Positions 17,043-50,310 of a stretch of DNA of 64,000 nucleotides are shown piece after piece. The notes beneath the pieces are model-generated. The model was not told the DNA's origin and made no database searches. It saw only the letters and a program-made list of their open reading frames with translations. The DNA is taken from the NCBI GenBank assembly GCA_022072055.1, contig JAJVIK010000011.1, positions 494,597 to 558,596 of the forward strand. Direction: 5' to 3'. This DNA comes from a bacterium (GTDB lineage Bacteria > Hinthialibacterota > Hinthialibacteria > OLB16). The position numbers and the translations under genes are program-made. Within the stretch, counting starts at the first letter, position 1; each line of letters opens with the position of its first letter.

Positions 17043-18587
17043 ATGAAAAATTACGCTCTCGCCCTTCTGATCCTGCTCCCTGGCCTGCCGAGTTACTCCG
17101 CTCAGCTCTCCAATCTGGTTCCCGGCGCCGCCTATCTGGTCTGGCAGGATGGATTTCCCGGCGAGACGATGGTGGCTGGCGAGGGTTCGCTGACCGTCAC
17201 GCTTCCAGCGGGCTATCACAAGGTCGCCCTGGAGTTTGTGAGCGCCAACCCGACCCCGATTCCGACCGTTACCGAGGACCCGACTCCGGTGGCCACCGCC
17301 TCCCCGAGTGTGGAGCCCACCCCCTCCGCCACGCCGACCGAGAAGCGCGAAGGGAACGAGGTCCTGGTCGCCAGCTTCGATCAGGAGAGCGGGCGTAACC
17401 GGTTTGAGATTCTGGACGAGAACGGCAACAGCCTGAACGGGGTGATCGAGGTCCTCGAGGGTGTGAGCGTTCCGGGCGAGATCAAGGCCGCCGACCTGGA
17501 TGGGGACTCGGTCCTTGAGGTGGTGGCCGCCGGTTGGAACTCCGAGCGCGGCGTGGTGGTCGAGTTCTGGACCGGTAACGGCCAGATGCTGAGCTCGGCG
17601 GATGTCTTCCCGGTTGACTTCCAGGATGAGAATTACCTGCTCACCGGCGATTTCGACGGGATCGAGGGGCTTGAGGCGATTCTGGTGGGGCGCGCCGGGG
17701 ATGGCTCCTATCGCTCCGCCGCGGTTTCCCTCTCCGGCGAGGTGCTCGGGGACGAGGAGATTCTGCCCGCCGGTTACTCGAACATCGAGTCTCTGTTCAC
17801 CTCGGATGTGGACGGCGATGGAGTCGGCGACCTGGTGGTCCTGGCGCGGAATGCCTCGACCTTCGTGGAGATGAAGGTGGTTTCCGGGAACTTGGTGGAG
17901 ACCTCGGTTGTGGTCTTTGGGAATGGGTACACCGGCAAGGTCTCCGGGTTCCCGCTCGACACGGACGGGGATGGCATCCTGGAGATCGGTTGCGCCTGCC
18001 GGAACGCCAACACCTCCGACTTCCGCCTCCTGGTCCTTTCACACGAAGGCACGGTGGTCTTGAAGCAGAACTTCTTCCCGGGCAAGTTTGAGGACAACGC
18101 GACCTTCACCGCCAGCGACCTGAACTCCGATGGGCGCTCTGAGATTACCGCGTTGGGGCGTATGACCACCACCGGGTCGAATGTGATCCAGGTTGTGGAC
18201 GGCAGCGGGGACCGTCTCTTCTCGCGGACAGTGCTCGATCCCTCCTATAGCGGCGTGAATTCCAGTGTGCTGGCCGACCTGAACGGGGATGGAGTCCAGG
18301 AGCTGGTTGTCGCCGGAAGCAGCTCGGTCTCCGGCGAGGCGGCCTACCAGGTGTTCGAGATCGATGGAAACCTGATCGCGGGTGGAACCGCCTTCGAGTC
18401 CGCCGCCACCCCGGCCCTGGCCTCCTCCGATCTGGATGAGAACGGCAGCGAGGAGCTCCTGATCCTGGGCGAGTTCGAGGATGGGGCTTGCGGGCTTGAG
18501 ATGCGTGATGGGCAGAGCGGCGAAGTCCGGTTCACCACGACCTTCTCCACCTCCCCTTCCCTGGTGATGGCGGGCGACATGATCTGA
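17043..18587 (+). CDS. Secreted FG-GAP/VCBS-like repeat protein
   Basis: A 514-residue exported protein with a cleavable signal peptide (LALLILLPGLPSYSA). A short beta domain (about 20-70) and a Thr/Pro/Ala linker (about 75-103) precede a repeated region. The repeats carry calcium-loop motifs of FG-GAP/integrin alpha-like blades: DLDGDSVLEV, DFDGIEGLEA, DVDGDGVGDL, DTDGDGILEI, DLNSDGRSEI, DLNGDGVQEL and DLDENGSEEL. Seven blades suggest a closed seven-bladed propeller on the cell surface. The GAGGT ribosome binding site supports the ATG at 17043. No ligand can be inferred. Confidence 0.8.
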   Translation: MKNYALALLILLPGLPSYSAQLSNLVPGAAYLVWQDGFPGETMVAGEGSLTVTLPAGYHKVALEFVSANPTPIPTVTEDPTPVATASPSVEPTPSATPTEKREGNEVLVASFDQESGRNRFEILDENGNSLNGVIEVLEGVSVPGEIKAADLDGDSVLEVVAAGWNSERGVVVEFWTGNGQMLSSADVFPVDFQDENYLLTGDFDGIEGLEAILVGRAGDGSYRSAAVSLSGEVLGDEEILPAGYSNIESLFTSDVDGDGVGDLVVLARNASTFVEMKVVSGNLVETSVVVFGNGYTGKVSGFPLDTDGDGILEIGCACRNANTSDFRLLVLSHEGTVVLKQNFFPGKFEDNATFTASDLNSDGRSEITALGRMTTTGSNVIQVVDGSGDRLFSRTVLDPSYSGVNSSVLADLNGDGVQELVVAGSSSVSGEAAYQVFEIDGNLIAGGTAFESAATPALASSDLDENGSEELLILGEFEDGACGLEMRDGQSGEVRFTTTFSTSPSLVMAGDMI

Positions 18588-38990: not shown

Positions 38991-40940
38991 TCAATTCGAC
39001 CCGCTTTCCTCAAAGTGAAGTCGCAAGATTCTCTCGATTTCCTTGATCACAAGGGGATGTTCGTGGATCTGGGTGTGGCGCGCGGGAACAATCAGCTCGG
39101 ACTCAGCCCAGGAAATCCGGGCGCTGGGGAGGAGCACCACTCCATCGCCCCCTTCCTCGCCCACGCCCTGGGCGTTCCCGACAATGTTGTGGTAGTGGAC
39201 CTCCGGGGAACGGGGAGCCTCCGCGAGCGCCGCGAGGACCGGCGAATCGGTGCGCAGCTGATTAATGCTGGTGAAGTAGTCCTCATCGAGGCTCATCCGG
39301 GCATACTGTTTGTTCTTGTCCCCCACGGTCTGGATGAACATGCGGGTGGGTTTGGGGAGATCGACCAACTGAGTTCCGAGCCACCCCAGGGGGCGCATGG
39401 CGATGGGCGATCCCTGATGGGGAGTGGCCATGAAGACCACCCGCCGGATGAAGGGGAGACGTTTGAAATAGAGCGTGCGCTGGAATTCGTCGCGCTCTTC
39501 GGGAGTAAGGTCGAGACGGTCGATTGGGACTGTCCAGGTGGCGTTCCAGAAGGCCTCCCCGCTGTCTTGGGAGAGGAAGCGCGCCAGGAGCCCCCCCATG
39601 CTGTGCCCGATCATCACGATGCTGTCGAGCGCGGAGTCTTTGTCCTCGGGGTCGAGACGCCTTCGCAGATTAAGGATCGACCGGCGGAGGTCGGCGGCGT
39701 TCCAGAGCATTCCTTTCCCAGTGGGGTACTGCATGAACCAGAACTCGTAATGTTGGCGAATCCAGGGGTCATCCATGAGTCCGTTGACCAGGGTTTCCCA
39801 AGGACGGCTCGAGGAGAGAAGACCATGGCACAGGACAACCGGGATGCGACCGGGGCGGTGCGGCTGGAAAAGGAAAACCGCGCCCTGGGTGTCCTCGTCC
39901 GTCCCGATGAAACCCGACCAGGTTCCTGAGTCGAAGCCGGTCTGGTTGAGCATGTAGTTGAGCGGAGTGGAGAGGTCCGCCTCCACGGGGATCTCGAGCT
40001 CGCCGATCCGGATGGTTTCCTGTGCGTAGGGATTGACCAAGTGAATCGTGTCGCGACGGTCGGTGACCTCCAGGTCGAGGGTTTCGTGGGGGATGTAAAG
40101 CGCGGTCACCGGGAAGGCGCACACGGGGGGATAGTTTTCGACCGACATGTCGGGGTTTCCATAGCGCAGGGCGATCAGGGGCACTCCCAGCCCATGTCGT
40201 CGGGAAGAGGGACCGACCTCATCGGTGCGGTAGTCGGCGGTGGGGAGGATCTCGTGGATATCCTCGGCCTGCCAGTCGAACCCGATCAGTTTGAACATCG
40301 CCTGGGTCACCCCCTCCGGTGTGTCGAAGCGATAGAAGGCCTTGGGGTGAAAGGGGATGGCGTCCAGGCTGAAGCGCAGGGTCTGTTCCAGGGAGTAATT
40401 GTAGATGTCACAGGCGTTTCGGAAGCGTGGATGAAAGGCGTGAGTGGGGAGATTCCCCGATGCCACGGTCAGGTAGGCATAGGACAGATAGGACGCAAGG
40501 CCATAGTAGGCGAGGACCTCGGGCTTCGCGGCGGTCAGACGCTGGCTTGGGTTAGGCGCCTCCGGTTCAGCCGCCGGGGGAGTCCCGCGACGCTTGATGA
40601 AGGGGCGGCGGTTCCAGGGGGGGGCGTTGCGCTCGCCGAGGACATTGGCGAGCTCGGCGGCGGCGAAGAGCAGTTTGGTGTCTTGCTGGTTTTCCGGTTC
40701 CTTGAGGATTTCGGCCAGCAGCCCTTCAAAGGCGGTCGCGGGGTTCTTCGAGTACTCTTGCAGGAGGTTCTCGCGGTATAGGACCTCCAGGCTCTCCCGT
40801 GAGAGCTGATTGGATTTGGCCCGGTCGTCCATGCCGAGCACAATCCCTTCCTTGGACCAGTTGGAACGAGCGCCCGTGCGGGCGCAACCGAGAACGAGGC
40901 ACAGGGGGAGACAGAGGGAGCCGACGATAAGGGTCCTCAC
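38991..40940 (-). CDS. Lipase-like alpha/beta hydrolase lipoprotein
   Basis: A 649-residue protein with a lipoprotein signal (LCLPLCLVLGC) and a C-terminal alpha/beta-hydrolase domain. The nucleophile elbow GHSMGG is near residue 443, preceded by the oxyanion-type VVLCHGLLSSSRPW. A likely catalytic His is in PARHTQIHEHPLV near the end. The N-terminal half (about 30-330) is a family-unknown region. It is presumably anchored at the outer membrane or cell surface and hydrolyses an ester. The GTG start is chosen because it gives a good lipobox. It lies just after gspK on the same strand. Confidence 0.82.
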   Translation of the reverse strand: MRTLIVGSLCLPLCLVLGCARTGARSNWSKEGIVLGMDDRAKSNQLSRESLEVLYRENLLQEYSKNPATAFEGLLAEILKEPENQQDTKLLFAAAELANVLGERNAPPWNRRPFIKRRGTPPAAEPEAPNPSQRLTAAKPEVLAYYGLASYLSYAYLTVASGNLPTHAFHPRFRNACDIYNYSLEQTLRFSLDAIPFHPKAFYRFDTPEGVTQAMFKLIGFDWQAEDIHEILPTADYRTDEVGPSSRRHGLGVPLIALRYGNPDMSVENYPPVCAFPVTALYIPHETLDLEVTDRRDTIHLVNPYAQETIRIGELEIPVEADLSTPLNYMLNQTGFDSGTWSGFIGTDEDTQGAVFLFQPHRPGRIPVVLCHGLLSSSRPWETLVNGLMDDPWIRQHYEFWFMQYPTGKGMLWNAADLRRSILNLRRRLDPEDKDSALDSIVMIGHSMGGLLARFLSQDSGEAFWNATWTVPIDRLDLTPEERDEFQRTLYFKRLPFIRRVVFMATPHQGSPIAMRPLGWLGTQLVDLPKPTRMFIQTVGDKNKQYARMSLDEDYFTSINQLRTDSPVLAALAEAPRSPEVHYHNIVGNAQGVGEEGGDGVVLLPSARISWAESELIVPARHTQIHEHPLVIKEIERILRLHFEESGSN

Positions 40941-40978: not shown

Positions 40979-43900
40979 CTACCGGCGCAGTTCCACCTCA
41001 ATTCTTTGATCCGCGACCTGTTCCGGCTGGGGGGTCGGGACGGGCTGATTGCCGGAAACCCTTGGCGAATCCACATTGAACACCCGTCCGCGCGAAGTCA
41101 CGATGAACTCGTTGGATTGCACGGTGGAGAGGTTGGCAACCCTCCCCATCATGATGAGCAGGTCGGACTCGTCGATTGAGGGCTGGGTTGCGGGATCGAG
41201 GTCACGCCAGTTTCCGGGTTTGAGGTCGCCGCCGGTAGCCAGGTTGATCCGCCGCAGCTCCTGAATCAGGACCGGATGGAGAAACACATTGGCCAGATCC
41301 CCCACTTCGCGATAGGGGCCATCATCCCCGCCCGCGGCGCCCGCCTCATCCGGTTCGTCGATCAGCTCAGGCGAATTCGGATCGTCGGGATCCACAAAAT
41401 CCCCGTCATCATTGTAGCTGAACCTGCCGAAACCGAGCCGGGTGTCAATGAATCCGCGATCCCCATTCTCCTCAGCTTCCAGAATGGGTGAGTCCCAGAA
41501 GGGGGGATAACGGAACGGTTCATCGGACCTGCCCGGCGCGCCGCCGATATCGCTTAGGTCTGAGGCAGCCTCCGGGTTGGCGGGCTCCGGAGAGCCATCC
41601 AGGTCATCATCGTGGTAGGGGAACCCGATTTCGCCGTCGAAACCCCGCTGGGAACGCCCCATGACAATCACCTGGGACATCAAACCCGCAAACCGCAAGC
41701 GGGCGGGAATCTCACTGAACCTGGGTGACTCGGGGGGCAGGAAGGGGAGCGCGGTGAGCACCTTCTGGTCCGCGCAGTTGATGTTCAGCAGACCCTCCAC
41801 CTCGGCGTCCGGATGGAAGCTAAGTCGGCTTGCCAGTTGGCGCATCTCGCTTGGAGTCGGACCGGAGAAAATACCCCTGCCCATCGAGAATTTTTCGAGA
41901 TTTCTCCCAAACGCCCCCGCGAGATAGGGTGAGCAGCTCGCCATGGGTCCTTCGCGGAAGCGCAGGCTGCGCTGGAAGACATAGGTCTGGGGATCATCGC
42001 CCGGGACAGTCAGAATGCGGCGCCTGTCGATGAAGAAGGATTGCCCCTCCAGGTTGGTGTCGGGGAAATAGAACCACTCCTGTCCAGGGTCCCCCGCGAT
42101 GCGCCCGGCGGGTTTGATGAGGGTCGGGTCCTGGACTTCCGGATCGGCGCGTCTTCCGGGTGAGATCTCGATGTATGCGAAGAGGCGCTGGGTGGAGGTG
42201 GCGCTGGATTGCGGCCCAAAGGTGAGCCGCAGGGAACCGTGCTCCAAATCGAGGATATCCTTGTACTGGTCGGGGAACTTCGGATCGATGACATAGGCCA
42301 GTTCCCCGTGATAGACCGTGCTATAGCGCTCGTCATCCGACTCGGTGTTGTTGTTGTCTGTGGGATCAAGGTCGATTCTTCCGACGGCGCGATTGGAGAT
42401 TCCCCCCACTCGAACATAGAGAAGCGGGAAGCGCTCCTCGTCATCCAAATCCGGGTCCGGATTGCGGAAATGGTTGAGAATCCCCGGCCAGTGGAAGGTC
42501 ACCTCGCCGGTCGCCGGAATGGTGAAGAGGTTTTCGCCGAATTCCGTCCAGGTGTGGACCGGGATGTCGGTTCCGTTGGTGGCGTTCCCGACCGTTCCGG
42601 CGCTGGCGCGCCCGACCACGCGCTCAGCCTTGAAGCTCGCCCCGGCTCGGATTTCCTCCTTGGTGGGGGTGGGCGTGTTGACCAGGGTGACCGCGGCGTC
42701 CTCAGCCAGGAAGCGCATCGGTCCGTGCACGTACATCTCCTCGGTGGTGGTGGTGTCGTCGGTCTTGGAGGCGGTCCCCTTGGTGTCAAGCGTCCTCTCG
42801 ATCCGAAGCACGGATCGAGTCGGATCGCCGCGATGTTGGGGGGCGAAGGCGACCTCATCCTGACGGCGCGTCCGTTGGTTCGGAGTGCAGAAGTCGGTGG
42901 AGATGTTGAAGTAAAAAGAATCCATGAGGACCCCACCGGGGGCGTACATCTCCACGTTCTTGGTCCCATCCTGGCCGAACACAATCTCATGCAGATTCAG
43001 CGTCAGGTTGAGCGGTTCGGTCGTGGAAACCACGCTATCGCCGGAGAGGATGAGGGGCTCCACTCCCCCCTCGTGGGCCGCAGGAACGAGCGCGGGAATC
43101 TTGGAGGGGCCATCGTCCTTGATATCGTCCGGATCGACATCCTCGCGGTAGAGGACCGCAAATTGTCCGGGGTTGAGGACAAAGTCTTCTTCATCCTTGA
43201 GGCGCGTGACTCGCGTGGTGTCCTCTTCATTGGCGTCCTGGACCCCATTGTTGTTGGCGTCGTCAAAGCTCCCCACGCGGAACTCCCAGTTCGCCAGCGA
43301 GATGGGGCGCTCCCCGAAGTTGGCGAGCTCGATGTATTGGGCGTCCGGCGCATAGAGCTCGACATAGTCAAAGGAGATGTCGGCGGTCCCGGGAACCTTG
43401 TTGATTTGAATCACGAGCTCGCCATCCTCAAGGACCGGAACCTTTTCCACGGAGGCGAAGGCTTTCCCGTTCTGGAAGACATTCACAAAGGCCTTGCCGA
43501 ACCGGTCGGCCTGAGAGTTATTGGCCGGGTTGATGGCAATCAGCGGGTAAGTGTTATTGGCCGCCAGGGGAAGGCTCCCGAGGTTCCAGTTCCCGGTGGA
43601 GCGGCTGTAGGCGATCACATAGTACTCCCCCTTGGGGATCGAGGGGAAAACCCACACATCGCCGCTCTGGGCCGCGGTGTCGATCGTGTAGTGCGTTCCG
43701 TCCTCCGCGAGGGTCCAGTTCCCGTGGGTCGCGCCGAAGTAGCGCTCCGGTTGGAGACGCATGAGCGGGCGGGCCATGACTTCGGTGATGCGGATCGCCT
43801 CGTTGCCGTACGCGACCGTGGTCGTCACGCTTTGAGTGCTTGATCCGCTTGGGATGCGGACCGTGGAAATCCCATCCGGCTGGTCATCCGAAACCGAGTA

Positions 43901-46249
43901 GTCCAGGGAATCGACCAGATTGGCGAGCAGCGGAGCCTCGACCGGGTCTTCGTCCATGCGCAGTCCGGGGCCGAGCTTGGCGCCGGCGACTTCGACTTCG
44001 AGCGGGGGGCGGATCTTATCGGTTGTCTTTCGGACGGGATACTTGTCCTGGTCATCATCCCAGGAGGCGATATACCACTCGTCGATCTCATCCACTCCTT
44101 CGTCGGCGGCGGCGTCCCAGGCATCCTTGGGGGAGATCCCGGAGTTCTCGCTGAGCAGGCGGAGAAAATCTTCATGACGGGTTTCGTCGGTCAGGCCGTC
44201 AAAGTCGTTGTCGATCCCATCCGACATCCAGCGCGTGGCATTCCCGTTGTTGTCGATCTGATCCCCGAAGACCCAGTCGCCGACACTGCTTTCGGTGGTG
44301 TCGGTGTAGATGGCGCGATTTCTTTCGTTGGGGGCGCGATTCAGGCGGATTAGCGGCTCCTCCGGGTCGGAGGGGTCGACTTCCCCGGCGCTGGGAGGAC
44401 TGAGGAGGAACTGGCGGTCAGCCTGGGTCACCCTCCCCCAGGTTTGGCGATCCTCGTTGATTCGGGGTTCCGGATCGTAGGTGGGGGCTCCATCGCCGTT
44501 GTGGTCCCCGCTATCGTCGGGGAACCCGTCCCGGTCGTCGTCCTTGTTGTTGGTCTGATCGGACTCCCCGGCGCCGTCCCAGTCGCCATCCGGGAGGCCA
44601 TTGCGGTTCAGGTCATCGGATCGGACCGTGTTCCCATCGAGCGTGTCGGTCCCCCAGTCCCCATCGTTGTCGAGCGCGGCCAGGGCGAGGAAATCGTTGA
44701 CGGTGGGGCGGGCTTGGGTCCCCACGGGGACTTGGGCGATCAGCAGGTTGGGGTTGTATTTGCGGCGGTTGCCGAGCTCATCGGGGCTGTTCTCGAAGTC
44801 CCTGCGCTGACGTGGGGCGGAGGAGCGGACGGTGATGTAGCGATCGAGGATCTCGAAGACCGTGGGGCGCTCGTTGGCGGGGAGATCGCTCGGGCCATCC
44901 AGTCGCAAGGGGCTGCCGTTCGCGTCCACCAGAAAGCGCGCCAGTTCCTCGCGGGAGATGAATGGCGTGTCCCTCCCGGACTGCCCGTCTCGAAAGGGGT
45001 TGGTCGGGCGGGATTCCGCGAGATCGTCGACCCCGGGGTCGTCTGGGGTCCCGCTCGCATCGATCTCAAAGGCGTCGTCGATCACATCCGGAATGCCGCC
45101 ATCATCCTGTCCATTGGTCAGAAGGGCGGCGCGGTTGGCGCGGTTGTCGAGGAGGTCGCTCGGGGGGTTGGCCGTGTCGAGCGGATCGGCGGTCCCGGCG
45201 GCCATCTCATCGGCTTCATCGGTGAGACCGTCCAGATCATCGTCGATATTGTTGAAGCGGGGATCGAATCCGCCGGCGTTTCCATTGTCGTCCGCCGCAA
45301 GGGTTCCCGGGCCTTGGTCGGCGCCTTGACGGTAGCGGATGATGCCGGGAAAGGCGCCCGCGCCGAACCCGTGGGCAATCTGCAGCCCGCGCTCCCCTCC
45401 GACCAGGCATACCAGGAAGGTCTCCAGGTCGAGCTCGCCGGGATGGATGCCTTGGGAGTAGATGTGATTCTCCTCGGGGCCGTTCTGGTTGCCCGCGATG
45501 TTGATGTTGAGTCGGGCGGTGGAGGGTTCGATGCCGGTCCAGTCGCGGTCCTGATCCCAGCCCATTGAGAGAACCTCCAGGCGAAGGTCTCCAACCGAAT
45601 CGAAGGGCAGAAGATCATTTCTGAAATCCACGCGGTCCTCTTCGGTCAGCCCGTCCTCGTCATCGTCCAGCGGACTGAGTTCGGCGTTATCGATCACGCC
45701 ATCCTGGTTGTCGTCGATGCCGGCGATGCCGGGTTTGCCATCGGCGGAAATGTCCCCCACCGGGTCTTCATCCACCCCCAGGCGGCTGAGATAGAATTCC
45801 TGGTCGAGGAACCCGTTGCTGTGGCGAATCTCCCAGGTTCCGCCGTTGTGGAGGGGGAAGAGGTAATCCTGAGGCGTATTGAAGAGGTCCGAATAGATGC
45901 GCCGATTGTCAAAAACCCACTGACGCAGATCGTAGTTGCTCAGCGGTTCATTCGTGCTGATCGGCCCGGATGCCCCGGTGGACCACGGATCCAGGAAGGA
46001 GAGGTAAGGGCGAACCTCATCGCCGGTGAAGGGGATCCCGTCCGGCCCGTTGACCTGAACATCAAACTCCTGGCCCATGAGCGCCGCCCCGCCGGCGGCC
46101 ACATCGCCGACCGTCTGCCGATTGGTGAAGTGGGTGGCGGTGGTGAGCTGAATGCGGATTTGTTGCACAAACGCCGCCGCGAAGATCGCGAACACGGTCA
46201 AGATGACCAGGACTGTCAGGAGGGCTATGCCCCGGGAGTTCTCGCGCAT
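40979..46249 (-). CDS. gspK: Giant GspK-like minor pseudopilin with calcium-binding repeats and lamin-tail-like domain
   Basis: A 1,756-residue protein with a type IV pilin-like N-terminus (RGIALLTVLVILTVFAIFAAAF). Gly7 precedes the cleavage point, and the usual glutamate at position +5 is absent (Thr), the hallmark of GspK. The GspK NIN motif appears twice, at 248-250 (ARLNINIAG) and 1489-1491 (GLLNINCAD). Between them lie a long region rich in Asp/Gly/Asn calcium loops and a lamin-tail-like segment (about 960-1,090; YIELANFGERPISLANW). Normal GspK is about 300-350 residues. It is the tip protein of a type II secretion pseudopilus. It begins one base after the GspJ stop. Confidence 0.82.
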   Translation of the reverse strand: MRENSRGIALLTVLVILTVFAIFAAAFVQQIRIQLTTATHFTNRQTVGDVAAGGAALMGQEFDVQVNGPDGIPFTGDEVRPYLSFLDPWSTGASGPISTNEPLSNYDLRQWVFDNRRIYSDLFNTPQDYLFPLHNGGTWEIRHSNGFLDQEFYLSRLGVDEDPVGDISADGKPGIAGIDDNQDGVIDNAELSPLDDDEDGLTEEDRVDFRNDLLPFDSVGDLRLEVLSMGWDQDRDWTGIEPSTARLNINIAGNQNGPEENHIYSQGIHPGELDLETFLVCLVGGERGLQIAHGFGAGAFPGIIRYRQGADQGPGTLAADDNGNAGGFDPRFNNIDDDLDGLTDEADEMAAGTADPLDTANPPSDLLDNRANRAALLTNGQDDGGIPDVIDDAFEIDASGTPDDPGVDDLAESRPTNPFRDGQSGRDTPFISREELARFLVDANGSPLRLDGPSDLPANERPTVFEILDRYITVRSSAPRQRRDFENSPDELGNRRKYNPNLLIAQVPVGTQARPTVNDFLALAALDNDGDWGTDTLDGNTVRSDDLNRNGLPDGDWDGAGESDQTNNKDDDRDGFPDDSGDHNGDGAPTYDPEPRINEDRQTWGRVTQADRQFLLSPPSAGEVDPSDPEEPLIRLNRAPNERNRAIYTDTTESSVGDWVFGDQIDNNGNATRWMSDGIDNDFDGLTDETRHEDFLRLLSENSGISPKDAWDAAADEGVDEIDEWYIASWDDDQDKYPVRKTTDKIRPPLEVEVAGAKLGPGLRMDEDPVEAPLLANLVDSLDYSVSDDQPDGISTVRIPSGSSTQSVTTTVAYGNEAIRITEVMARPLMRLQPERYFGATHGNWTLAEDGTHYTIDTAAQSGDVWVFPSIPKGEYYVIAYSRSTGNWNLGSLPLAANNTYPLIAINPANNSQADRFGKAFVNVFQNGKAFASVEKVPVLEDGELVIQINKVPGTADISFDYVELYAPDAQYIELANFGERPISLANWEFRVGSFDDANNNGVQDANEEDTTRVTRLKDEEDFVLNPGQFAVLYREDVDPDDIKDDGPSKIPALVPAAHEGGVEPLILSGDSVVSTTEPLNLTLNLHEIVFGQDGTKNVEMYAPGGVLMDSFYFNISTDFCTPNQRTRRQDEVAFAPQHRGDPTRSVLRIERTLDTKGTASKTDDTTTTEEMYVHGPMRFLAEDAAVTLVNTPTPTKEEIRAGASFKAERVVGRASAGTVGNATNGTDIPVHTWTEFGENLFTIPATGEVTFHWPGILNHFRNPDPDLDDEERFPLLYVRVGGISNRAVGRIDLDPTDNNNTESDDERYSTVYHGELAYVIDPKFPDQYKDILDLEHGSLRLTFGPQSSATSTQRLFAYIEISPGRRADPEVQDPTLIKPAGRIAGDPGQEWFYFPDTNLEGQSFFIDRRRILTVPGDDPQTYVFQRSLRFREGPMASCSPYLAGAFGRNLEKFSMGRGIFSGPTPSEMRQLASRLSFHPDAEVEGLLNINCADQKVLTALPFLPPESPRFSEIPARLRFAGLMSQVIVMGRSQRGFDGEIGFPYHDDDLDGSPEPANPEAASDLSDIGGAPGRSDEPFRYPPFWDSPILEAEENGDRGFIDTRLGFGRFSYNDDGDFVDPDDPNSPELIDEPDEAGAAGGDDGPYREVGDLANVFLHPVLIQELRRINLATGGDLKPGNWRDLDPATQPSIDESDLLIMMGRVANLSTVQSNEFIVTSRGRVFNVDSPRVSGNQPVPTPQPEQVADQRIEVELRR

Positions 46250-46250
46250 A

Positions 46251-47744
46251 TCAGTTATCCCCAGTTCCGAACGGCAACATGACCCGCGTGGAGACTCGAA
46301 CAGGGTCTTCCTTTAGGCGATTCTGATCCTGAACAAAGAGGGTGATTTCGATGATCCGGGGAAGGCCATCGGTGCGCCGAACCGCGTTTGCGATCCGCTC
46401 CTGCTCCGCCTCAACCGCGTCATCGTTCGGATCAAACAGCTCATTGAACTTGGAAGTTCCAGGGATGACCGCGAGGTCATCCGCTTCATTGGGCAACACG
46501 GGGATATCCGATGGGGGAAGGACGTACGGATTCAGCGCCCTGTTCTCATAGGAGGAGTCCCAGGAAAGCGCGGGGAAGAAATAGGGGTTGAAGCGGCTGT
46601 TGAGAGTGGGAATCAACACCGTCGCGTTCGGGGAGTTCTCGTCACGATTCTCTTCCCCAAGGAGATAATCGTAGTAGTAGGCCTTGAAGTCCACTCCGAG
46701 GATATTGAGGGCCATGACCTCGTAAACCTGAGTGATGCCGAGCGTCCGGTGGGGCTGGTTCCGCTGCGCGTTGCTCCGAATGATGCCGACCTCGCGCGGC
46801 TCCTCGCCGCGGTCCACCGAGTTTGGGTCTTCCGAGTCGAAATCCTGGTCGAACCAGGGAACAAGCAGGTCGGGGGATATCCCGGGAACCGGTTGAGGCT
46901 GCGCCGCGCCGCGAGCCGCGAGCGCGTATTGAACCGCGATGGGATAGAGGCCGTCGAGACGTGCCGAGCCGGTGGAGACCGCGAGCAGTGCGGTCCGGCG
47001 GAGCAGGTCGCGGCGGGTAAGCGTGTCCATGGCGTAGCCGACTTCGATTTCGCGGCCCCTTCTTGAGGTCAGGAAATTGATCATGTCGCGCGGGAAGAAG
47101 AAGTCCTCGTCGATGCCCTCGTCCACTCGCCCATCGCCGTTGTTGTCGATCCCGTCAGCCATGGCTACCTGGAGAATGGGGTGCATGGGGCTGCTCGGTT
47201 CACCGTCCCCGTCGTTGTCCAAGCCGTCGAAGGCCTCTTCGTCGGTTTCTCCATCCCCGTCGTCGTCAATCCCGTTTCCGGTGAAGATCCGCTTGTCGTT
47301 CACATCAACGCCCAAGGTCCGGGCGCGGTCCTTGTCCGGCGGCCAGTCGTTGATGAGCAGACGCCCACGCCCGTTGTCCGGCTCGTTGAGGTCAGCCGGA
47401 ACCCCACCCCCTGGATCAGCGGCGAAACGCAGATCATCCTCATACAGTTTCGCGGAGCGGAGCTCCTGGGCCATCAAACCAAGGGCCGAGCGCGCGTTCT
47501 GGTAGATGTCGATCCTCGCGGCGGCGGCGCGTCGAACCTCGGTTGCGGCGAGCAAGGTGGCGAAGGCCATGCTCATCACGAGCAGGAACACGGCCACCGA
47601 AACCAACATCTCAATCATGGTGAACCCACGGCAGGAATGAACGACAATCCCACGAAGGTGGGAGTCCATTGTCCACGGACTTCCTACTGGATTCCCGTTT
47701 CCACGGAAATGACGCCGAATGAGGGGAACGCGCGGGAATCTCAT
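46251..47744 (-). CDS. gspJ: GspJ-like minor pseudopilin with calcium-binding repeats
   Basis: A 497-residue protein (ordinary GspJ is about 200). The prepilin signature CRGFTMIEMLVSVAVFLLVMSMA has Gly before the mature Phe and Glu at +5. After the helix, repeated loops such as NGIDDDGDGETDEE, DGLDNDGDGEPSSP and DGIDNNGDGRVDEG occur near residues 155-235. The rest is beta-rich. The ATG at 47744 overlaps the GspI stop as ATGA, so coupling favours it although the leader is long (40 residues); a start at 47669 would give a shorter leader. Confidence 0.82.
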   Translation of the reverse strand: MRFPRVPLIRRHFRGNGNPVGSPWTMDSHLRGIVVHSCRGFTMIEMLVSVAVFLLVMSMAFATLLAATEVRRAAAARIDIYQNARSALGLMAQELRSAKLYEDDLRFAADPGGGVPADLNEPDNGRGRLLINDWPPDKDRARTLGVDVNDKRIFTGNGIDDDGDGETDEEAFDGLDNDGDGEPSSPMHPILQVAMADGIDNNGDGRVDEGIDEDFFFPRDMINFLTSRRGREIEVGYAMDTLTRRDLLRRTALLAVSTGSARLDGLYPIAVQYALAARGAAQPQPVPGISPDLLVPWFDQDFDSEDPNSVDRGEEPREVGIIRSNAQRNQPHRTLGITQVYEVMALNILGVDFKAYYYDYLLGEENRDENSPNATVLIPTLNSRFNPYFFPALSWDSSYENRALNPYVLPPSDIPVLPNEADDLAVIPGTSKFNELFDPNDDAVEAEQERIANAVRRTDGLPRIIEITLFVQDQNRLKEDPVRVSTRVMLPFGTGDN

Positions 47745-49363
47745 GGCGCGTTCTCCGGGAGTTGGATTAAGCCGGTGGTCTTGTAAACCCGGCGGTAGTT
47801 GTCCTCATCGGTCCGACCGTCAAAATCGTCGTCGATCCCATCCAAGACTTCCTCGTCGATCCAGCCGTCCCCATCGTTGTCCTGACGATCATCCCCTTGG
47901 AAGATCAGGATGGTCACAAGCAAGGCGCGCGGCGCGGGATAGAAGCCGAGGTCCTCGTCGATAAGTCCGTCTCCATCGTTGTCGACTCCGTCATAGTACT
48001 CTTCATCAATCCAGAGCAGGTCGCCTTGATTCGTCAACCCATCACGATTGACATCGTAAAGGATCGGGTGGTCTTGAGGCGGGTCGCTTTGGTCGGTGAA
48101 AAAGCGGGGGCCTTCATTGGCGTCGCCATCGTTGTCGATTCCATCCCCGCCGATGGCGGCGCGGCGGACCTGAATCTGGAAGGAGTACTCCTCATTGGGC
48201 GGCGGAAACGGGATGGGATTCCAGGGAAAGACCGCGGCGCGGCAATCTTCATCCACCCTACCGTCCCCGTCGTCGTCGCGTCCGTTGAACAGTTCCTCGT
48301 CGATGCCTTCATCGACCCGGCCGTCGTTGTTGTTGTCCAGATTATCCGCCACCACCTCGTCAATGAGGCCGTTTCCGTTGTTGTCGATCCCATCGCCCAG
48401 AATCTCGCCGGGCGCGGGCGGGCTTCCCGGTTCGCCGTCGCCATCGTTGTCAATCCCATCCCCGGCAAAGGTCGGGCGGTAGTTGTAGGGATTGGTCGGG
48501 TCCCCGCCCTGGAAGAGGACCGAGGCGAGGGCGATATCCTCGTCCGTGAGTCCATCGCCATCATCATCGATTCCGTTGGAAAGCTCCTCGTCGATTCCGC
48601 GCTGGGGGTCATAGGTGAAATCGCCGTCGGGGCGGGATCGCGGTCCGAAAAGTTGCTGAAGCGCCCCCTGATAGTTCAGGGCGATTTCGTAATCCCCGGT
48701 GTCCACCGGGATGCCATCCCCATCCTCATCGGTGGCATTGATATGGCAGCCGGGCGCGAGAAAGGTATAGGCGACACCCTGCTCCGCGCCACCGTCAAAA
48801 TCCCGCAGGCTCGTGGCGCGTGGGGGCGTGTTCACATTCTCCGACTGCGAGATGGCGCTCGATATCTGAGTCTGCATTTGATCATCGAAGCCATCAGGAC
48901 CATCCGCCACCTGGGGTGGCCCGGTCTCCACCCTCACCAGGGTCTGTTCGTCGGTCCAGCGGCCACCCAGATCCACCGCGGCGTCATCGTCCACTCCGTT
49001 TCCCGGAACCGAAAAGACAAAGGGGAGCTGCATGCCGACCGAGTTCTTGGTGATGTCATAAGGGGTTCCATCCTGCGCGGCGAGGAACGTGTCTTGGGTG
49101 GGGTAGGGGTTATCGGGAGGCGACACGCGAAGGATCGGCCAATAAGTGGGGTTCAATCCGGGGACAAACGGGAAGCCTCCCTCCGGATGGGCGCGAAGGC
49201 CCTCGAGGAGGCTGTCGGCCAGCAGGGCCGCCCGTGTCTCGAACTCAATCGGCTCGCTGGCCACCAGCGCGCGCTGTAGGATCGCCAGCAACCCCAAAAG
49301 GCCGAAAGTGAGGATGGCGAGGGCAACCAGGATCTCCAGGAGGGAAAATGCGCGCCTTCTCAT
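47741..49363 (-). CDS. gspI: GspI-like minor pseudopilin with many calcium-binding repeats
   Basis: A 540-residue pseudopilin (ordinary GspI is about 125). The N-terminus MRRRAFSLLEILVALAILTFG has Ala at -1 and Glu at +5 of the mature end. About ten thrombospondin type 3-like loops occur from residue 240 onward: NGIDDDGDGLTDED, DGIDNDGDGEPGSP, DGIDNNGNGLIDE, DNLDNNNDGRVDEG, NGRDDDGDGRVDED, DGVDNDGDGLIDED and others. The C-terminal beta domain ends in LIQLPENAP. It shares one base with the GspH stop and four with the GspJ start. Confidence 0.84.
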   Translation of the reverse strand: MRRRAFSLLEILVALAILTFGLLGLLAILQRALVASEPIEFETRAALLADSLLEGLRAHPEGGFPFVPGLNPTYWPILRVSPPDNPYPTQDTFLAAQDGTPYDITKNSVGMQLPFVFSVPGNGVDDDAAVDLGGRWTDEQTLVRVETGPPQVADGPDGFDDQMQTQISSAISQSENVNTPPRATSLRDFDGGAEQGVAYTFLAPGCHINATDEDGDGIPVDTGDYEIALNYQGALQQLFGPRSRPDGDFTYDPQRGIDEELSNGIDDDGDGLTDEDIALASVLFQGGDPTNPYNYRPTFAGDGIDNDGDGEPGSPPAPGEILGDGIDNNGNGLIDEVVADNLDNNNDGRVDEGIDEELFNGRDDDGDGRVDEDCRAAVFPWNPIPFPPPNEEYSFQIQVRRAAIGGDGIDNDGDANEGPRFFTDQSDPPQDHPILYDVNRDGLTNQGDLLWIDEEYYDGVDNDGDGLIDEDLGFYPAPRALLVTILIFQGDDRQDNDGDGWIDEEVLDGIDDDFDGRTDEDNYRRVYKTTGLIQLPENAP

Positions 49364-50235
49364 CAGGTCTGCCCCTCGAAAGTGTCCGGGAGGGGCATCC
49401 TGGGCCAGGGATAGTGAATGCCATAGTCGTAGGCCACCGTCTGCCCGGTCAGCCTGAGCAGGTACAGGGTGTGCACCTGGGGTCGGGCTTCGTATTCCTG
49501 ATTCACATTGCTGAGGAGCCGGGCGAGTTCTGGATTGGGAGCGGTCAGGGGCGCGGAATCGATCGGCAGAATCAGGGAGAGGTAATCGATATCCCCTCCG
49601 ACTTCCCCGAGGTCGAGAACCGTTCCGGAGAACATGAAGTGAAGCGCGGGGTTTCGGACCACCGAATTGGAGACCACCTGTGCGTTGGGAGCGCGGGAGG
49701 TGCGCTGCATGGTTGTGATCTGACCATCCTCGGCATAGACAAAGCAGATGTAGTACGATTGGGTCCCATCGCCGTTGTTCTTGCCGGCGTTGGACCCCGT
49801 TGGAATCACCGCGCGGCCATCGATATCGACAAGCTGAACACCGGCGGGCAAGGTCTGGGGGTCATCCAGCGGCTCGGAGTAGTTGGTGGGATCCCAGTTG
49901 TCCAGCGCGGGATTCACCTTGCGCTCCACCCAAAAGTCCACTCGGATCCCGGCCTCATAAAGGGCCGATAGGCTGGGAGAGGAGGTTTCAAGGATCGGGT
50001 ACGTCACCCTCACCACCACCCTCCGCTCCTGGTTGGTGGCCAGGGCGGCGGTTTGGGCGGCGCGGAAGACTGTGGCCACCTGCCCGAGGGCCGTGTCCCG
50101 GCGCGCGCTGGCGATCATGCTGGTCACGCTCACCCCCACCAACGCCACCAGCACCCCAATCACCGCCAGCACCGCCACCATCTCGATGGGGGTGAAACCG
50201 GCGCAAGTTGGGCGTGCTCTCATTCGCGACCGCAT
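49363..50235 (-). CDS. gspH: GspH-like minor pseudopilin
   Basis: A 290-residue pseudopilin. The signature CAGFTPIEMVAVLAVIGVLVALVG has Gly13 before mature Phe14 and Glu18 at +5. The C-terminal beta domain contains IRVDFWVERKVNP and ALHFMFSGTVLDLG. Unlike GspI, GspJ and GspK it has few or no calcium repeats. The ATG at 50235 is supported by AAGGA eight bases upstream. It is the first gene of a gspH-I-J-K operon, in the order found in type II secretion loci. The rest of the secretion system (GspC-G, GspL-M) is not in this window. Confidence 0.84.
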   Translation of the reverse strand: MRSRMRARPTCAGFTPIEMVAVLAVIGVLVALVGVSVTSMIASARRDTALGQVATVFRAAQTAALATNQERRVVVRVTYPILETSSPSLSALYEAGIRVDFWVERKVNPALDNWDPTNYSEPLDDPQTLPAGVQLVDIDGRAVIPTGSNAGKNNGDGTQSYYICFVYAEDGQITTMQRTSRAPNAQVVSNSVVRNPALHFMFSGTVLDLGEVGGDIDYLSLILPIDSAPLTAPNPELARLLSNVNQEYEARPQVHTLYLLRLTGQTVAYDYGIHYPWPRMPLPDTFEGQT

Positions 50236-50280: not shown

Positions 50281-50310
50281 AGTATAGGAAAGCCTGGAAT
50301 TTACCGTCAA
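50281..50310 (-). promoter_or_regulatory. Sigma-70 promoter of the gspH-I-J-K operon
   Basis: The minus strand reads TTGACG (50310-50305), 18 bases, then TATACT (50286-50281). The predicted start near 50274 gives a leader of about 39 bases. The -35 sits inside the palindrome CCGTCAACTTGACGG, which could be an operator. Confidence 0.65.

Follow-up and report, generated by a model that had tools for sequence, protein, structure and literature searches.

An H-I-J-K minor-pilin operon with calcium-type loops and a giant K subunit in the Hinthialibacteria, probably encoding a large filament tip

What would a bacterium do with an operon of minor pilins in which three of the four subunits are several times longer than usual and carry rows of acidic loops? 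The operon lies in the 64,000-nucleotide stretch of contig that was analysed here as a whole (the window). A sequence-only reading of this DNA had described an H-I-J-K operon with standard gene order and prepilin motifs, and coordinates, sizes, and N-termini agree with that description (Table 1). The four genes are packed into a single operon on the minus strand, with junctions that overlap or are only a few bases apart, and prepilin N-termini are found in all four. The lengths that had been given for GspI, GspJ, and GspK (540, 497, and 1,756 residues) are correct, with the probable true start of J giving 472. The reported lack of the Glu at +5 of GspK is confirmed in its class III prepilin N-terminus, this position being a Thr (G↓IALLT). 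The promoter upstream of H is the only promoter-like site that a consensus scan found between positions 40600 and 50700, where shuffled sequences gave 2.0 on average.

Table 1. Features of the H-I-J-K operon and its surroundings (window positions)
Feature	Position	Strand	Remarks
sigma70-like promoter TTGACG-18-TATACT, upstream of H	50281..50310	-	10/12 consensus matches
H: GspH/FimU-like minor pilin, 290 aa from ATG, ORF to 50310	49363..50235	-	prepilin site CAG↓FTPIE; no loops
I: GspI/PilV-like minor pilin, 540 aa	47741..49363	-	prepilin site RRRA↓FSLLE; 10 calcium-type loops
I residues 212-522, all ten D.[DN].[DN]G loops	47798..48730	-	six kept in >=6/7 class orthologues
J: GspJ/PilW-like minor pilin, ORF 497 aa; probable start 47669 = 472 aa	46251..47744	-	N-terminal matches TIGR02599, TIGR02532, TIGR01711
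J residues 160-211 (497-aa numbering), three calcium-type loops	47112..47267	-	first loop kept in 7/7 orthologues
K: giant GspK/PilX-like modular minor pilin, 1756 aa	40979..46249	-	prepilin site SRG↓IALLT, no Glu at +5; 10 loops
K residues 179-691, eight of K's ten loops	44177..45715	-	seven of ten K loops kept in 7/7 orthologues
first GspK-like part, K residues 246-310, RLNINIAG...GIIRYR	45320..45514	-	class-conserved; homologous in other phyla
LTD (lamin tail)-like module, K residues 968-1045	43115..43348	-	PF00932 E 6.5e-6, 26.9 bits (cut-off 34.3)
second GspK-like part, K residues 1486-1505, GLLNINCADQKVLTALPFLP	41735..41794	-	hhalign to genome's ordinary GspK, Prob 79, E 1.6e-5
lipoprotein-like alpha/beta hydrolase, 38 bases downstream of K	38991..40940	-	PF00561 E 2.1e-6

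The hydrolase encoded downstream was considered as a conserved partner and rejected, because its gene is away from K in both other family members examined, and it probably stands outside the system. Outside the window's family, the gene after K in most class members encodes an apparently exported protein of 430-455 aa (e.g. L034 3295-4605 and L039 3080-4447), which has an NGDFE-type motif and is without a Pfam match.

The giant K is found in all 14 genomes of the class, namely that of the window and 13 others, and in none of the other 47 of the 61 genomes searched. Eight complete cases from eight species have K frames of 1,752-2,200 aa, and the genes keep the same order elsewhere in the class. 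Where I is whole it comprises 458-540 aa with 8-10 loops, whole J proteins have one to three loops, and H has none in the class operons. Identity between the class orthologues and the proteins of the window ranges from 27 to 56% in K, from 43 to 48% in I, and from 26 to 58% in J. An assembly error or a frameshift that fused separate genes, which the sequence-only reading had named as a way to be wrong, is refuted by this comparison, in which 14 genomes agree, and we regard its probability as negligible; nothing was found in its favour beyond split I or K frames in the draft contigs of a few relatives. The same holds for close homologues with the same N-terminus that lack the repeats, of which there are none among the orthologues recovered in the class.

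By motif count (D.[DN].[DN]G), the window proteins contain ten loops in K, three in J, ten in I, and none in H, as had been noted for GspH. Chance repeats were considered and rejected, since 1000 shuffles per protein averaged fewer than 0.5 loops in each (K 0.48, J 0.10, I 0.37, and H 0.01), with maxima of four, two, three, and one, respectively. The loops are also better conserved than their surroundings (0.76 in loop columns versus 0.50 in the rest of K, and 0.70 versus 0.51 in I). The loop proteins consist to 10-15% of Asp, and similar loops are present in unrelated proteins of the same genome, so that low-complexity acidic expansions without metal-binding function have to be considered. 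However, the ligand-type residues and the positions of the loops have been kept class-wide at an overall identity of 26-58%, and H, encoded in the same operon, has none. Such positional conservation is what selection on the loops would be expected to give, and the acidic-expansion explanation thus appears very improbable.

The extra sequence had been described as repeated loops. In I the loops do make up much of what has been added. At about 12 residues each, they account for only a small share of the additions to K and J, which are mostly other sequence including the LTD-like module of K. Thrombospondin type 3 repeats are not the best match for the motif either, because it is without their cysteines (in total, I contains two cysteines, J one, and K four). 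Judged by its residues, the motif comes nearer to Dx[DN]xDGxxD, the EF-hand-like motif of PilY1, and to the acidic repeats NF033662 and PF11617 in a form without cysteines. When the loop list is read directly, the full Dx[DN]xDGxxD pattern is fitted by six of the loops in I, by two in J, and by four in K, and the repeat models stay under their cut-offs in these proteins (10.6 bits versus 27 for PF11617, and 17 versus 41 for NF033662). PilY1 needs calcium via the Dx[DN]xDGxxD motif (PMC8833165).

D-rich loops were also seen elsewhere. An FG-GAP repeat protein of 514 aa encoded in the window (17043-18587, plus strand) has five similar loops, and a frame of 1,846 aa on contig C10 of the same genome (L137 2387-7927) has seven and is without a Pfam match. 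Both ordinary GspK proteins of the genome (L048 11736-13103 and L047 9929-11398) share a D-rich insert of the form GED.N.DG....E.DG.E..P.D..DG.L..GL. A scan of viral contigs for loop proteins found one loop-bearing protein, which is without a pilin start.

The K protein begins like a GspK. Its residues 6-58 match the GspK model NF037980 (E 1.5e-6, 28 bits versus a cut-off of 130), and this N-terminal match is present in seven of eight class members. PF21687 and PF03934 have no match in the window K, and PF03934 was found in only two of eight class members, with a best E of 0.011. K nevertheless contains a two-part LNIN(T)A skeleton of the GspK type, near residues 246 and 1487, and these two parts correspond to the two halves of GspK. 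Most of the K loops and the LTD-like module sit between them. The LTD match was obtained for all eight class K proteins tested, being weak in each singly and sub-threshold in the window K. K thus joins an N-terminal pilin module to an LTD-like domain that is not specific to type IV filaments, as is the case in modular pilins. Like PilB and PilC of S. sanguinis, it combines a pilin module with a large non-pilin module and putative metal sites, and shares the proposed location at the tip; unlike in those proteins, the module consists of an LTD together with unknown sequence between GspK-like parts, and the partner I has been expanded as well. In GspK itself the pilin module is interrupted by an inserted domain, and a location at the tip has been assigned to modular pilins (PMC8179133).

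A profile of the class K proteins also finds K-like proteins in other phyla, within H-I-J-K cassettes in most of the cases inspected. The class set aligns to eight of them with hhalign at Prob 100 and E 1.5e-50 over K residues 2-504, which include the loop region. LTD was found in seven of nine such proteins tested, mostly ahead of a T2SSK/HHH_3 match, and HHH_3 matches near the C-terminus in eight of the nine; in three K homologues LTD scores above the cut-off. Because K is homologous to these large, mostly LTD-bearing proteins, a giant K is not unique to the class. The K-like LTD minor pilins of the other phyla (loci L121-L130) resemble the window operon in the H-I-J-K cassette, the second LNIN part, the LTD in most, and the signature KININ(T)AG...DGIDNDGDG...EG.DDP.EF. 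They differ in having K proteins of 640-1572 aa and an I of usually 140-230 aa with no to two loops. Most I proteins outside the class have frames of 116-334 aa. An exception is genome G322 with an I of 395 aa and four loops and a J of 688 aa and two loops; loops are also found in the J of G142. Repeat insertions in homologues across phyla, which the sequence-only reading had proposed to look for, thus exist in some J and I proteins. A loop-rich I is nearly unique, with the I of eight to ten loops as the extreme of this class.

The partners of K are equally hard to file. I matches the PilV model TIGR02523 with an E of 1.1e-9 (38.9 bits versus a cut-off of 52.2) and the GspI model TIGR01707 with an E of 7.3e-5, which is also under the cut-off, and therefore appears most like PilV. 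J matches TIGR02599 (Verru_Chthon C) in all eight members, in the N-terminus only and with 32 bits versus a cut-off of 256.5. Of the other Verru_Chthon models, TIGR02596 reaches 25.8 bits versus 70. These matches bring up the uncharacterised Verru_Chthon cassette A-D (TIGR02600, 02598, 02599, and 02596), which likewise consists of prepilin-type genes with a giant member and resembles J and H at the N-terminus. The set might thus be a cassette outside the classic filaments, whose prepilin-processed proteins would be anchored or displayed at the cell surface. The Verru_Chthon A model TIGR02600, which has 1,296 positions, matches K-like proteins weakly and over part of their length, both in this class and in other classes. 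However, it never reaches its cut-off in 290 genomes, with no match listed for that of the window, the cassette matches end after about 60-75 residues and stay under the cut-offs, and the H-I-J-K order and the conserved prepilin helices fit filament priming. We consider a cassette of the Verru_Chthon kind unlikely. Profiles of K, I, and J searched against the PDB returned only pilin helices and one chance calcium protein, and AlphaFold2 models of I and of K 1-480, built from a two-row alignment, had a mean pLDDT of 31 and are unusable. A literature search found no relevant paper joining a lamin tail domain with a pilin or thrombospondin type 3 repeats with a pseudopilin, and none naming the Verru_Chthon cassette. 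As membership in the GspK, T4P minor-pilin, and Verru_Chthon families fails at curated cut-offs, the proteins are best filed as a variant of the modular GspK/PilX-type pilins, and would work like a minor-pilin tip complex.

Which machine would this complex belong to? The four-gene H-I-J-K order, the prepilin motifs, the K without Glu at +5, and the two LNIN parts are all shared with the T2SS GspK-GspI-GspJ tip (ETEC GspIJK and P. aeruginosa XcpVWX), and calcium sites are known in GspK. Calcium is bound by two canonical sites in GspK, and by a third in XcpX (PMC6211770). It is therefore possible, though rather improbable in our judgement, that the operon encodes the pseudopilus tip of a second T2SS-like machine, where the K ectodomain and its LTD would recognise or push exoproteins and calcium would stabilise the tip as in GspK and GspG. 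The N-terminal and C-terminal GspK likeness of K described above speaks for this, as do the several GspE-type ATPases and four secretins in the genome. On the other hand, both T2SS-type loci examined come with shorter minor pseudopilins of their own, I resembles PilV more than GspI, and there is no apparatus gene beside the operon, in particular none of the T2SS genes E, F, G, L, M, C, and D. The window set further differs from the T2SS tip in a K that is several times longer with its LTD module and huge insert, in the calcium-type loops of I and J, in its place apart from the T2SS genes, and in Pfam GspK models that remain under cut-off.

The genome of the window has a complete ordinary T2SS on another contig (C6) with a GspK of 489 aa and a second locus with a GspK of 455 aa, and an ordinary GspK (T2SSK_1st) is present in each of the 14 class genomes. 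The minor pilins of the window thus come in addition to those of the T2SS, and the earlier idea that they stand in place of a normal secretion piston does not hold. A PilM/secretin/PilT-like ATPase locus is found on contig C3, and PilM in 14 of 14 class genomes; this T4P core is an apparatus without a minor-pilin set nearby, and with no apparatus gene beside the operon the two would be paired by elimination. A stand-alone four-gene operon apart from the core, an I that best matches PilV, and loops that fit the calcium motif reported for PilY1 are also features of T4P FimU-PilV-PilW-PilX sets with PilY1. The best family match of K, which is GspK and not PilX, counts against the T4P reading. PilY1 (PF05567) was detected in none of the 14 class genomes, which leaves room for a diverged PilY1, while the same search was positive in 18 of 117 of a wider set; a giant modular K is present instead.

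Genome-wide, there are 76 prepilin N-methylation matches, 15 T2SSE-type ATPase matches, and four secretins. The secretin of the ordinary T2SS (C6:181954-192582, at the end of L047 and the start of L057) is encoded by one uninterrupted frame of about 3,540 residues. It contains an N0 domain, one Secretin domain, and at least 26 matches to Secretin_N (stretches with 11 and 15), a domain of which three copies are normal for a T2SS secretin. The scanned part of the gene showed no near-identical DNA repeats.

Our preferred explanation, for which the chances seem about even, is that H, I, J, and K are the four subunits of a complex that primes a type IV filament and forms its tip, the filament being most likely a type IV pilus rather than that of the ordinary T2SS. 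K would be the modular tip subunit, in which the pilin helix and the two GspK-like parts frame a large class-specific ectodomain including the LTD. Once outside the cytoplasm, the EF-hand-like loops of I, J, and K are expected to bind calcium, which would rigidify the long inserted segments and result in a stiff, enlarged tip. The finished tip, large and calcium-dependent, could prime assembly and contact surfaces or substrates, and may thus do the job that PilY1 does elsewhere. The tip as the likeliest site for I, J, and K agrees with the exposed role that had been proposed for them, and this location, like calcium binding, the pairing with the T4P core, and an adhesive role, is what we infer from the proteins and their genomic setting.

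What a type IV filament comes into contact with, and how it is started, depends on its tip subunits. Tentatively, and with considerable doubt, one could go further and suppose that the class has swapped the PilY1 tip adhesin for a giant tip made entirely of pilins and hardened by calcium (about 2,800 residues in I, J, and K combined), and that the LTD-bearing K represents an unrecognised family of tip subunits across several phyla. This LTD-inserted K-like family is largely missed by Pfam and NCBIfam at curated cut-offs. If the explanation is true, this family and the calcium-type loops that have been added in parallel to I, J, and K in the class would together show how a tip can be enlarged without PilY1, and the operon would provide its bearers with a large calcium-hardened filament tip, probably for grip or secretion.
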